Origin: Anaerolineae bacterium
Lineage (GTDB): Bacteria; Chloroflexota; Anaerolineae; Anaerolineales; UBA11858
Assembly (NCBI GenBank): GCA_003694235.1
Contig: RFKO01000133.1
Span: 1-14,163, forward strand
Length of the DNA: 14,163 nucleotides
Reading direction: 5' to 3'
Below the pieces are notes generated by a model. It was not told where the DNA came from. It worked only from the letters and a program-made list of their open reading frames with translations, and searched no databases. The position numbers were made by a program, and so were the translations under genes. Below, piece by piece: positions 9,515 to 14,029 of this stretch; the first letter of the stretch is position 1; each line of letters begins with the position of its first letter.

Positions 9515-12244
9515 TCAGGCTTCTCGCCGTCGTAGCCACCATTTCTGCAGCTCCACCCCCCAAAAGACGGCAGTGCTCAAAAGCAACGCCACCGCCAGAT
9601 CAAGCGGCGGCAAAGCCACGGTCTCGAAGACTTCCTGCAAAAAGGGGACATAGATCACTGCCAGTTGCAAAACCAGGGTGAGCAGCACCGCTCCCAGCAA
9701 GGCCTTGTTCGACAGCCATCCCAAGCGGAAGAGCGACTCTCGATCGGAGCGGATCGCCAGCGCGTTGCCCATCTGTGAAAGCGTCAGCGTGGTGAAAAGC
9801 ATGGTCTGCCAGTCGGGACGGCCAGAACGCCAGGCCCAATAGCCCATCCCCAGCGAGACCAGCCCCATCAGAAAGCCAATCCACACGATATCGCGCCCCA
9901 TACCGCGCCCGAAAATGTTTTCCTCCGGATGAATCGGCTTGCGCCGCATCACGCCCGGTTCCGAGGGTTCGACCGAAAGCGCCAGGCCGGGGAGACCATC
10001 GGTCACCAGGTTGATCCAGAGAATCTGCAATGGCAACAGGGGTAGCGGCATTCCCAGGAAGGGAGCGAACAACATCACCAGAATCTCGCCGGTGTTGGAA
10101 GCCAGCGTGTACTTGATGAACTTGCGGATGTTATCGTAAATCGTGCGGCCTTCTTTCACCGCCGCGACGATGGTGGCGAAATTGTCGTCCAGCAAAATCA
10201 TGTCAGCCGCTTCTTTGGAGACATCGGTGCCGGTGATTCCCATCGCCACGCCGATATCCGCCTTTTTGAGAGCCGGCGCATCGTTGACCCCATCCCCTGT
10301 CATGGCGACGACATGCCCTTGCTTTTGCAAAGCCTTGACGATGCGCAGCTTGTGCGTGGGCGAAACCCGCGCGTATACCGAGGTGTGCCGCACAACCTCT
10401 TCCAGTTCTTCGTCCGGCAACGCCTCCAGCTGACTGCCGGTGATCACGCCGCCATCTTCTCCCAGCATATCCAGTTCCCGCGCGATGGTCTGGGCCGTCA
10501 GCGGATGGTCACCGGTGATCATGATGGGGCGGATGCCTGCCGTACGGCACATGGCGACCGCGTCCCGCACCTCCGGCCGCGGCGGGTCAATCATCCCCAC
10601 CAGCCCGACAAAGACAAAATCGCGCTCGATATCCTGTTCGTCAATCTTCTCAGGAAGCGACTCCAGCGGACGGTAAACCACGCCCAGCACCCGTTTGCCC
10701 TCCTGCGCCAGAGCATCGTTGGCTTTCAGAATGCGCTGCCGCAGGTTATCCGTCAACGGCAAAACCTGCTGACCATCCCACACATACGAGGCCAGCGACA
10801 ACAAACCATCCACCGAGCCTTTGCCAAAAGCCACATAGCGAGCCTCGCGCCAGGGGGCATCGGTCTGATCTACGCTCACATTGACCTGGTGGATGGTGGT
10901 CATGCGTTTACGCTCTGAGGTAAAGGGGATTTCCGCCACCCGCGGCCAGCGCGCCTCCAGTTCAGGCTTGAGCATACCCAAACGCGCCGCGGCGATTACC
11001 AGCGCCCCCTCGGTCGGGTCGCCTATTGTGCGGTAATACTCGTCCTCCGGCTCGTCCCCGACTTTGTCCAGCACAACATCGTTGCACAAAACAGCAGCCT
11101 TCAACAACAGCGCAAGGCTGCGCACTGGCGGCTCGGTGCGCGCCGTCAATTCGGCATCCAACACAGGAATGCCCTTGCGAAGCAACGTCTCGAAAGTCTG
11201 CACCGAGCCCATCACATCCAGCGTGGTGACGGTCATGCGATTCTCGGTGAGTGTGCCGGTCTTATCCGAGCAGATGGTATCCACCGACCCCAGCGTCTCC
11301 ACCGCCGGCAGTTTGCGGATCAGGGCTTTGCGCCGCAGCATCCGCTGCGCGCCCAAAGCCAGGGCGATGGTCACCACGGCGGGCAACCCCTCCGGAATAG
11401 CCGCCACCGCCATACTGATCGCCGTCAGGAACATCAGGCGCGCGTCTTCACCGCGCAAAATACCCAGCAGAAAGACCACCGCGACGATAACCAGCGAGGC
11501 GACCGCCAGCCCGCGCCCCAACTGCGCCAGCCGCCGTTGCAACGGCGTGGGTTCGCGTTCCAGCGACTGGATCATGTCGGCGATCCGGCCCAATTCGGTT
11601 TGCATCCCCGTGGCGGTGACCACCGCCACGCCGCGGCCGTAGGTCACAGTGGTGCCCATATACACCATGTTGCGCCGATCGCCGAGAGGCAAATTCTCCT
11701 CAGGCAAAGCGTCCACGTGCTTTTCAACCGGCTCGGATTCCCCCGTCAGCGCGGCCTCCTGCACGCGCAGATTCATCTCTTCGACCAGCCGCCCATCGGC
11801 GGGCACTTTGTTGCCGGCTTCCAGCAGCACGATATCCCCCGGCACCAATTCGACCGCCGAAATCTGCTGCACATGTCCCTCCCGGCGCACGCGCACGTAA
11901 GGAACGGCCAGCTTCTTCAGCGCAGCGATCGCCTGCTCGGCGCGGTATTCCTGGCTAAATCCCAGAATGGCGTTGAGCACCACAATCGCCAAAATGGCAA
12001 GCGCATCTTCGAGATCGCCCAAAAAGAGCGAGACGATGGCCGAGATGATCAGGATCAACACCATGACATCGGTCAACTGCTCCCAAAGAATGCGCCAGGG
12101 AGATTTTATGCCCCGCTCCACCAGCTCATTGCGGCCATACACTGCCAGCCTGCGCTGCGCCTCCGCCTGAGAAAGCCCCTCTTCAGCGCGGGTCTGTAGT
12201 TCCGTCAGTACATCCGAGAGTTGCCTGGTGTACCAGGGTATCAT
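9515..12244 (-). CDS. P2A-type cation P-type ATPase, probable Mn2+ (or Ca2+/Mn2+) exporter
   Basis: 909 residues, full length. Parts in order: N-terminal cation ATPase domain, actuator TGES (167-170), TM4 motif [11 protein letters not shown] (281-291), phosphorylation site DKTGT (Asp327), nucleotide-domain KGSVDG (475-480), [10 protein letters not shown] (575-584), hinge TGDGVNDAP (649-657), and six C-terminal helices. Compared with SERCA, ion ligands are kept at Glu285 (E309), Asn717 (N768), Glu720 (E771), Asn745 (N796), Thr748 (T799) and Asp749 (D800). Gln824 sits where SERCA has E908. The fold thus suits Ca2+ or Mn2+ export from the cytoplasm. The start is fixed by GGAGGT seven bases upstream. 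The leader holds a yybP-ykoY-type riboswitch and terminator, a class known to control Mn2+ exporters including P-type ATPases, so Mn2+ is the favoured substrate (inference). Confidence 0.95.
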
Positions 12245-12261
12245 GCCAAACCTCCAGAATT

Positions 12262-12294
12262 AAAAAAGCGAGCCGCCAAATCGGACGGTCTCGC
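12262..12294 (-). terminator. Intrinsic terminator of the riboswitch expression platform
   Basis: Minus-strand RNA: GCGAG, bulged A, CCGUC, loop CGAUUU, GGCGG, CUCGC, then UUUUUU. The 10-bp stem (one G-U pair) pairs 12290-12294 and 12284-12288 with 12268-12272 and 12273-12277. It ends a few bases before the ATPase SD, so it would block expression unless an alternative RNA fold prevents it. Confidence 0.85.
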
Positions 12295-12301
12295 AATCGC
12301 C

Positions 12302-12378
12302 ACAGGGCGCACAGGTTGCCGGGAGTAAACTCCGTCTTGACGACAACCTGTCCCGCAAACGCGGGTGCTACTCCCCGT
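12302..12378 (-). promoter_or_regulatory. yybP-ykoY family (Mn2+) riboswitch aptamer
   Basis: Read on the minus strand, the RNA contains the hallmark loop GGGGAGUAGC (12367-12376). A P2 hairpin ACCCGC-GUUU-GCGGG follows. A long P3 arm ACAGGUUG/CAACCUGU (12311-12351) then encloses the second conserved loop GUCGUCA (12338-12344) and an ACUCCCGG strand. A basal P1 can form between ACGGGG (12373-12378) and CCCUGU (12302-12307). These elements match the Mn2+-binding yybP-ykoY class as I recall it; in known members the two loops dock to bind Mn2+. The terminator after it and the cation ATPase gene downstream fit the usual setting of this class. Which stem competes with the terminator is not obvious by eye. 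Confidence 0.88.
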
Positions 12379-12408
12379 ATTCAAGTCAAACCTTCATTTC
12401 CAAAAGTG

Positions 12409-12436
12409 AGTATATCACAGGACAAGAGGGGGTCAA
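12409..12436 (-). promoter_or_regulatory. Sigma-70 promoter of the riboswitch-ATPase transcript
   Basis: TTGACC (12431-12436) and TATACT (12409-12414) on the minus strand are spaced by 16 bases, each 5 of 6 to consensus. Predicted start near 12402 places the complete aptamer in the transcript. The stretch 12437-12530 between this and the divergent promoter shows no gene or clear element. Confidence 0.7.
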
Positions 12437-12530
12437 GAACCGCAACGGCGGCAGAAAGAAAAAGAGGAAGATGGTCACCCCAGATTGAGGGCATTTCTCG
12501 CTTTCACCAGCCGTCAATCTGAAGCAACGA

Positions 12531-12539
12531 TGCTATAAT
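12531..12539 (+). promoter_or_regulatory. Extended -10 promoter of isocitrate dehydrogenase
   Basis: TGCTATAAT is a perfect extended -10. No good -35 is present (CCGTCA at 17 bases). Predicted start near 12546 leaves a leader of about 77 bases with one 7-bp hairpin (12567-12573 with 12584-12590, one G-U pair). Confidence 0.6.
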
Positions 12540-12622
12540 TGACGCGTTTTGAGAGCAGGAAACCACATCGGGCTGCCTCCGCCGCCCGGTGCAATCCCCA
12601 AAAAACACAAGGAGCGAAAAAG

Positions 12623-14029
12623 ATGACGTACACGATTATCGAAGTGCCAAAAGAGGGCGAAAAAATCACCATGCAAGACGGCGCGCTGCAGGTGCCCGAT
12701 CACCCCATTTTGCCCTTCATCGAAGGCGACGGCACGGGGCGCGATATCTGGCGGGCCGCGGTGCGCGTGTTCGATGCGGCGGTGGAAAAGGCCTACGGCG
12801 GCAAGCGCAAAATCCACTGGATGGAAGTCTATGCCGGCGAAAAAGCCTATCACAAATTCGGTGACTGGCTGCCGGAGGAAACCGTCAAGGCCTTCCGCGA
12901 ATACCTGGTGGGCATCAAAGGCCCGTTGACCACGCCGATTGGCGGCGGCATCCGCTCGCTGAACGTGGCGCTGCGCAAGCACCTCGACCTGTATGTCTGC
13001 CAGCGGCCGGTCAAATACGTGGACGGCGTCCCCTCCCCGGTCAAGCACCCCGAATGGGTGGACATGGTCATCTTCCGTGAAAACACCGAAGATATCTACA
13101 CCGGCATCGAATTCGCCTACGGCACGCCGGAGTGGGAGAAGTTCATGGCGGTCTTCAAGGAGAACTTCCCGGATGAATTCGCCAAGATGCGCTTCCCCAA
13201 CACGGCCGGCATCGGCGTCAAGCCGGTTTCCAAAGAAGGCACCGAACGCCTGGTGCGCGCCGCCATCAAGTGGGCGCTGGCCAATGGCCGCAAACGCCTG
13301 AGCCTGGTGCACAAGGGCAACATCATGAAGTTCACCGAGGGCGCCTTCCGCAACTGGGGCTATGCGCTGGCCAAGCGCGAGTTCCGCAACGAAATCGTCA
13401 CCGAGCGCGAATCCTGGATCCTGGGCAACAAGGAACAGAACCCCAACCTGACCGTGGAAGAAAACGCCCGCATGATCGAGCCCGGTTTCGACATGCTCGC
13501 CCCCGACAAGCAGCAGGAAGTCATCCAGGAAGTCAAGGACGCCCTGGCCTTGTGGGAGACCCACGGCGACGGCAAGTGGAAGTCCAAGTTGCTGATCAAG
13601 GACACCATTGCGGACATCGTTTTCCAGCAGACCATCACCCGCGCGAAGGAATTCGACGTGCTGGCCACCATGAACCTGAACGGCGACTACCTCTCCGACG
13701 CGCTGGCAGCTCAGATCGGCGGCATGGGCATCGCGCCGGGCGCGAACATCAACTACGAAACCGGCCACGCCATTTTCGAGGCCACCCACGGCACCGCGCC
13801 GAAGTACGCCGACCTGGACAAGGTCAACCCCAGCTCGGTCATCCTCTCCGGCGAGATGATGTTCCGCTACATGGGCTGGCATGAAGCCGCCGACCTGATC
13901 TGGAAGGGCATCACCGGCGCGGTCAAGGCCAAAACCGTGACCTACGACTTCCACCGCCTGATGGAAGGCGCCACCAAGGTGAAGTGCTCCGAGTTTGGCG
14001 ATGCCATCATCCGCCACATGGATGACTGA
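12623..14029 (+). CDS. icd: NADP-dependent isocitrate dehydrogenase
   Basis: 468 residues from the ATG with AAGGAG at about 12609-12614. A TTG 28 codons upstream overlaps the promoter -10 and was rejected. Substrate residues are in [23 protein letters not shown] (Ser112, Asn114, Arg118, Arg128) and [12 protein letters not shown] (152-163); metal Asp355 and Asp359 lie in [17 protein letters not shown] preference is shown by Lys394 and Tyr395 (HGTAPKYAD) and Tyr441 with Arg445 (TYDFHRLM), which match E. coli residues contacting the 2'-phosphate. It oxidises isocitrate to 2-oxoglutarate in the TCA cycle. About 45 extra residues near 272-318 are absent in E. coli Icd but resemble the insertion in cyanobacterial enzymes. 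Strong SD, own promoter and terminator, and frequent AAG lysine codons suggest high expression. Ser112 is the position that AceK phosphorylates in E. coli, but no kinase is seen here. Confidence 0.97.

Follow-up and report, generated by a model that had tools for sequence, protein, structure and literature searches.

Which signal controls the cation ATPase encoded on the minus strand of this Anaerolineae contig, and does the DNA ahead of it encode a metal sensor? A sequence-only reading of the window, by which we mean the whole 14,163-nucleotide stretch analysed, had placed a Mn2+-responsive riboswitch of the yybP-ykoY type at this position, acting on the pump by antitermination. Our analysis upholds that proposal. 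Two covariance models, covariation, an intact L1/L3 core and the overlap of the P1.1 helix with the terminator make it very probable that expression of this P2A-type cation ATPase depends on a Mn2+-sensing yybP-ykoY riboswitch that acts by transcription antitermination. Judged by its sequence, the leader looks like an ordinary member of the class that the standard database cut-off misses.

Architecture of the leader

Read on the minus strand from 12436 down to 12244, the leader passes from a sigma-70-like promoter through a junction RNA to a terminator with U6, the Shine-Dalgarno GGAGG and the ATG (Table 1). The promoter, GGGGAGUAGC, the GUCGUCA within a long arm and the terminator ahead of the ATPase Shine-Dalgarno, all named in the earlier reading, were found at 12262-12436 on the minus strand, and beyond them we recognized P2, P3.2, P4 and a P1.1 helix common to the terminator. 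All proposed pairs of the four-way junction P1-P4 are standard in the window. P3 forms a 10-bp arm (12351-12342 with 12320-12311) with GUCGUCA inside it at 12344-12338, and the window retains both the L1 motif GGGGAGUAG (12376-12368) and an L3 with A12338, the counterpart of the Mn2+-contacting adenosine. The terminator stem occupies 12294-12268 and is followed by six U at 12267-12262, its 5' arm taking up bases of P1.2, L1 and P1.1.

The fold of 12262-12436 reaches -65.1 kcal/mol (z -2.95), and 1 of 200 shuffles was as stable. Between 12000 and 12800 we counted two promoter-like sites, TTGACC-16-TATACT being one, against 0.3 in shuffles, and three terminator-like sites against 1.4 (sd 1.4), the latter alone not beyond chance.

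Table 1. Features of the pump gene and its leader in the window. A2 and A4 are leader alignments, and R1 and R2 the covariance models made from them.
Feature	Position	Strand	Basis
Promoter TTGACC-16-TATACT, TG before -10	12409..12436	-	10/12 consensus positions; consensus match only
Putative aptamer domain, four-way junction	12281..12382	-	R1 73.7 bits; R2 63.6 bits
GGGGAGUAGC, 5' strand of P1.1/L1/P1.2	12367..12376	-	Invariant in 34/34 A2 rows, which were gathered with a pattern that requires GGGGAGUAGC
P1.1 switch helix, 5' strand ACGG	12375..12378	-	Pairs with CCGU 12288-12285
P1.1 switch helix, 3' strand CCGU	12285..12288	-	Also within terminator 5' arm
P1.2, 5' strand GCA	12366..12368	-	Pairs with UGC 12295-12293
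L1, 3' strand GAGA	12289..12292	-	Placed via the L1 G-A contacts described in part of PMC6754395
P2 hairpin CCCGC-GUUU-GCGGG	12352..12365	-	R1 match and fixed-structure check
P3 arm with L3 and P3.2 hairpin GGAG-UUUA-CUCC	12311..12351	-	P3 covaries in A2 and A4
L3 adenosine, counterpart of A41 (L. lactis) and A48 (X. oryzae)	12338	-	By-eye match on UCA; part of PMC6754395
P4 hairpin CGCC-CUGU-GGCG	12298..12309	-	R1 match and fixed-structure check
Intrinsic terminator GCGAG-A-CCGUC / GGCGG-CUCGC and U6	12262..12294	-	-16.2 kcal/mol alone
Shine-Dalgarno GGAGG	12251..12255	-	Sequence; ATG at 12244
P2A-type cation ATPase, 909 aa	9515..12244	-	Pfam, NCBIfam and PDB comparison

Relatives of the leader and covariation

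The pattern GGGGAGTAGCN{10,40}GTCGTCA had 52 occurrences, spread over 46 of the 396 genomes from the window's class, and its reversed control gave 11 matches in the same search. A stricter pattern applied to GTDB genomes returned 54 stretches, by title 36 from Chloroflexota, one from an uncultured bacterium and 17 from other groups (Bacillota, Betaproteobacteria, Planctomycetota, Atribacteria, Capsulimonas and Chthonomonas). The resulting leader set held 98 distinct members, including E. coli mntP and the window, with four pattern matches dropped because they had no 3' end. Alignment A2 was made with MAFFT from 34 of the 47 class leaders, excluding the window, and given a hand-written structure. 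Its paired cells amounted to 82.2% against 66.1% in shuffles, with double changes in 26 of 33 pairs, and its covariation score of 0.429 (0.169 in shuffles) was matched by 0 of 500 shuffles and stood against at most 0.129 for slid versions; P4 was the weakest helix, at 55.0% paired.

Model R1 was built from these 34 related leaders and therefore without the window, to which it nevertheless assigned 73.7 bits (E 1.4e-15; E-values of both models are rough). The leader as a whole is thus far beyond chance. The same model gave 51.4 bits to E. coli mntP, 38.4 bits to alx and 47.6 to 65.0 bits to the best matches in the 17 loci of other phyla, and its best other match across its 21 sources scored 14.9 bits. 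Model R2 came from A4, a set of 18 leaders with mntP and alx but without Chloroflexota or the window, and scored the window at 63.6 bits (E 5.9e-14). A4 was 94.9% paired against 70.0% in shuffles, with covariation of 0.566 against 0.159, counts that lean towards the structure since A4 was aligned by R1 and fitted to its structure; for the same reason R2 is not fully independent of R1. Two further alignments were set aside, A1 because mntP was misaligned in it and A5 because of one locus on the wrong strand and misaligned E. coli rows. On these alignments the predicted aptamer is homologous to known Mn2+ riboswitches, and its proposed helices covary in relatives.

Among 21 genomes of the window's family, only the window's own carried a copy with the full 5' motif, and R1 found none in the 20 others, where part of the candidates was scored. 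Of the 30 ATPases closest to the window's, itself included, which were drawn from 121 sampled genomes of the order, 8 had an R1 match directly upstream and 22 did not. Across its own genome (80.76% complete) R1 matched the window only. The single RF00080 match in that genome lay elsewhere than the leader, at 11.6 bits; as a second copy, at C337, it was rejected, R1 listing nothing in L001.

Score of the Rfam model and its controls

The sequence-only reading had offered a covariance search against the yybP-ykoY family as its test, with a sub-threshold score counting against it. RF00080 was not listed at E 10 in a whole-window Rfam scan, and on 12245-12440 alone it scored 15.5 bits (E 0.014), below the gathering threshold of 45 (Rfam 15). 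The score is thus sub-threshold, but it does not amount to a refutation, because the known mntP switch misses the same cut-off: the mntP leader of E. coli (L113:1968-2058) reaches 44.9 bits, 0.1 bit short. It and the alx leader are reported Mn2+ riboswitches according to part of PMC9603457, and the two E. coli loci that carry them gave no RF00080 match at the gathering threshold. We therefore rejected this threshold as the deciding test.

In 14 control genomes RF00080 matched in nine and exceeded the cut-off in two. Under stricter filters, 31 of 45 other class genomes with the motif gave a match at E<=10, sometimes away from the leader, and none of the 45 passed the cut-off, the top score being 34.6 bits. 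RF00080 appeared at E<=1 in 6 of 20 related loci, and none of the 17 loci of other phyla with GTCGTCAAGACGG stood above the cut-off. The RF00080 gathering threshold is a database convention and not a biological feature, and it does not separate members from non-members.

The predicted Mn2+-binding core

In the solved structures described in part of PMC6754395, the ligands of Mn2+ are phosphates together with N7 of an adenosine that never varies, numbered A41 in the L. lactis RNA (UCA41AUUC) and A48 in that of X. oryzae (ACA48UACU). The L3 of the window reads GUCGUCA-AGAC and places an adenosine at the corresponding position. Its constancy in the collected leaders is no test, because the collecting pattern demands it. 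Six leaders found by the model outside the pattern (L121, L132, L135, L136, L140 and L151) all keep it, a 6/6 count that leans because R1 itself favours that adenosine, and the E. coli alx leader keeps it in UCGUCA. The P3 closing pair by L3 has changed on both sides in several model-found leaders, with UUC/GGA in L136 and AUC/GGU in L132.

P1.1 and the terminator

P1.1 is described as the switch helix, competing with the terminator, in parts of PMC6754395, PMC9190785 and PMC11087558. In the window its 3' strand, CCGU at 12288-12285, falls in the terminator 5' arm, and in this pairing scheme these bases can serve either P1.1 or the terminator. The third pair of P1.1 is C-G in the window, U-A in 32 of 34 A2 rows and A-U in 15 of 18 A4 rows, that is, both sides have changed and the predicted pairing is kept. 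Fixed-structure energies, which take in neither tertiary contacts nor metal, came to -48.7 kcal/mol for core plus terminator and -38.7 kcal/mol for core plus P1. The former being more stable, termination should be the default.

This arrangement recurs across the leader set. In a strict scan, 78 of 98 leaders had a terminator-like hairpin that draws on the P1.1 3' strand, compared with 1-7 of 98 in each of ten shuffled sets, and a lenient scan recovered one over that strand in 90 of 98, with mntP among the eight without. The window is absent from the strict 78 because its terminator has a bulged A and the scans are ungapped; the lenient scan caught it only through a poorer hairpin.

Because the terminator takes in the 3' strand of P1.1, Mn2+ should favour read-through. 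The parts of the L. lactis papers that bear on this (PMC11087558, PMC9190785) describe Mn2+-driven read-through and an ON switch, and a passage in one review describes Mn2+ riboswitches as OFF switches (PMC11477304). Following the L. lactis papers, we take the ON reading as the one that should apply to the window leader. At low Mn2+ the terminator would form and leave the ATPase off. At high Mn2+ the ion would sit between L1 and L3, coordinated by A12338 and phosphates near it, and the RNA would dock. P1.1 would then hold in the docked RNA, the terminator would be blocked and the ATPase made.

The pump and its neighbours

The ATPase carries PF00122, PF00690, PF00689 and PF13246, that is, the E1-E2 domain with the N- and C-terminal domains of a P2 cation ATPase. 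It narrowly missed the cut-offs of the NCBIfam PMR1-type family TIGR01522 (759.9 against 798.3) and the SERCA-type family TIGR01116 (652.7 against 703.4). We assign it to P2A because these are its two best families and because its nearest PDB chains by sequence are LMCA1 (654 bits) and then SPCA1 (579 bits). Its ion-site residues we take to be E285, N717, E720, N745, T748, D749 and Q824, counted from the ATG, on the SERCA naming of the sites. Between 25 ATPases linked to a leader and 33 others, the M4-M6 site letters hardly differed (K replaces E720 in 2 and 4, respectively), and at the M8 site there were 16 Q and 5 E in the leader-linked against 30 Q and 2 E in the others, gaps omitted. In this comparison leader presence means the pattern at -500 to +250 of the open frame together with R1 upstream matches; some genes are counted twice, and because the search was limited to that interval an ATPase lying deeper in a leader operon was scored as lacking the leader. 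These residues gave no mark of Mn2+ pumps, since they do not separate leader-linked from other ATPases. The pump probably exports Mn2+, perhaps along with Ca2+, a reading that derives from the switch and from studied relatives and not from the protein sequence.

Beside the pump lies recO, whose six best matches all fall in the window's own family (58-71% identity), which counts against misbinning of the contig. The isocitrate dehydrogenase at 12539-14029 (+), transcribed away from the ATPase, shares 91-92% identity with two genomes of another family (f65) and at most 82% with its own family. By these identities, it is possible that this part arrived laterally.

Genes behind related leaders

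We extracted 97 downstream proteins and scanned 39 with Pfam (A3), all from class loci and including the window's ATPase. P-type ATPases made up 23 of the 39, with four TerC, three Na/Ca exchangers and two GDT1 proteins bringing these families to 32/39; the rest were three VTT (DedA), two Zn_peptidase_2, one M50 with CBS and one LTD, and there was one weak TauE match. Ten proteins, chosen by inspection and overlapping A3 in four cases, comprised two M50, one each of VTT, TerC, MpsC, DUF454, LTD, Zn_peptidase_2 and Na/Ca exchanger, and one without a family. Some of the linked genes (DedA, M50, Zn_peptidase_2) are not obvious Mn2+ genes.

Several first genes were unexpected. Leaders stand before membrane metalloproteases, with Zn_peptidase_2 in L048 and M50 with CBS in L051 and L070; L048, L049, L050 and L052 were grouped as leaders ahead of such proteases, L050 and L052 being assigned to the Zn_peptidase_2 type by their N-terminal letters. 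Others precede DedA-like proteins (L012, L017, L034 and L072, the last with a VTT domain), MpsC (L088), DUF454 (L082) or LTD (L035), and L101 and L079 were grouped with L088 and L035 by similar N-termini only. A literature search for yybP-ykoY with metalloproteases or DedA gave nothing on point among the best 10 of 202 matches, and one for yybP-ykoY with Chloroflexi listed a single paper. On a Capsulimonas contig (L111:4160-4279) a TPP riboswitch (RF00059, 63.6 bits) lies on the opposite strand about 125 bases from a Mn2+-type leader.

Alternative readings

A switch that keeps the yybP-ykoY fold but whose pocket has drifted towards a different divalent metal, Ca2+ for instance, would match the Ca2+-type pump, and P2A ATPases and Na/Ca exchangers are indeed among the linked genes; according to a part of PMC7266159, a change of ligand is to be expected in some yybP variants, and a passage of PMC11434433 terms the S. 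pneumoniae mgtA switch Mn/Ca2+-sensing. We nevertheless hold such a drift to be unlikely, given that the window retains L1 and the Mn2+-contacting adenosine, as do alx and the six leaders missed by the pattern, with the lean already described for that count. We hold it unlikely as well that a Chloroflexota branch of the yybP fold, lying below the Rfam cut-off, has Ca2+, or Mn2+ and Ca2+ mixed, as its ligand and governs an envelope-cation programme in which P2A pumps, Na/Ca exchangers, DedA proteins and membrane proteases take part, and not Mn2+ efflux alone.

The near-chance frequency of terminator-like sites taken alone (3 against 1.4 in shuffles) would suit a plain terminator-bearing leader that binds no ligand, but the conserved L1/L3, the covarying junction and homology across phyla to known riboswitches render that very improbable. 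The least probable of these readings is another known class, c-di-GMP-II-GAG (RF03169), which among cis-regulatory families had the highest bit score in the narrow scan (17.2 bits, E 0.55). Its gathering threshold is 40, its E-value is weaker than the 0.014 of RF00080 in the same scan, the match spans 12342-12274 and so omits the conserved 5' core, and it did not appear at E 1 in any of 20 related loci; with the other sub-threshold Rfam matches, it was rejected.

Comparison with known systems

A Mn2+-sensing leader would point to Mn2+ as the likely substrate of a pump that would otherwise be annotated as a calcium ATPase. Such leaders stay hidden under the present RF00080 cut-off, which none of the 45 class genomes, none of the 17 other-phylum loci and neither E. 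coli leader pass, and a refitted model of the R1 kind would bring back both these leaders and their regulon. Mn2+ riboswitches before P-type ATPases are already in print, for the L. lactis orthologue and C. difficile CD2503 in a passage of PMC11477304 and for S. pneumoniae MgtA in one of PMC11434433.

The E. coli mntP and alx switches resemble the window in being found by R1, and alx shares UCGUCA. Unlike the window, mntP carries AACA in its L3, and the scan showed no overlapping terminator there; the two switches precede mntP and alx, not ATPases. On the protein side, the Ca2+ ATPases LMCA1 of Listeria (lmo0841) and SPCA1 are the pump's nearest PDB sequences, and LMCA1 has A where the pump has E720 in M5. 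Going by the title of Martin 2019, S. pneumoniae reportedly has a Mn2+ riboswitch and a cation ATPase called a Mn2+/Ca2+ transporter.

By its description in part of PMC11434433, S. pneumoniae mgtA likewise has a Mn2+ switch before a cation ATPase, although MgtA is there called P1B-type whereas the window's pump is P2A. The L. lactis yoaB riboswitch, compared over its core letters and in another host, has the same four-way junction, L1/L3 core with UCA and opposition of P1.1 and terminator (parts of PMC11087558, PMC9190785 and PMC6754395), and a P-type ATPase lies downstream (a passage of PMC11477304). It differs in the letters after the first UCA adenosine, which are A-U-U-C in L. lactis and A-G-A-C in the window.
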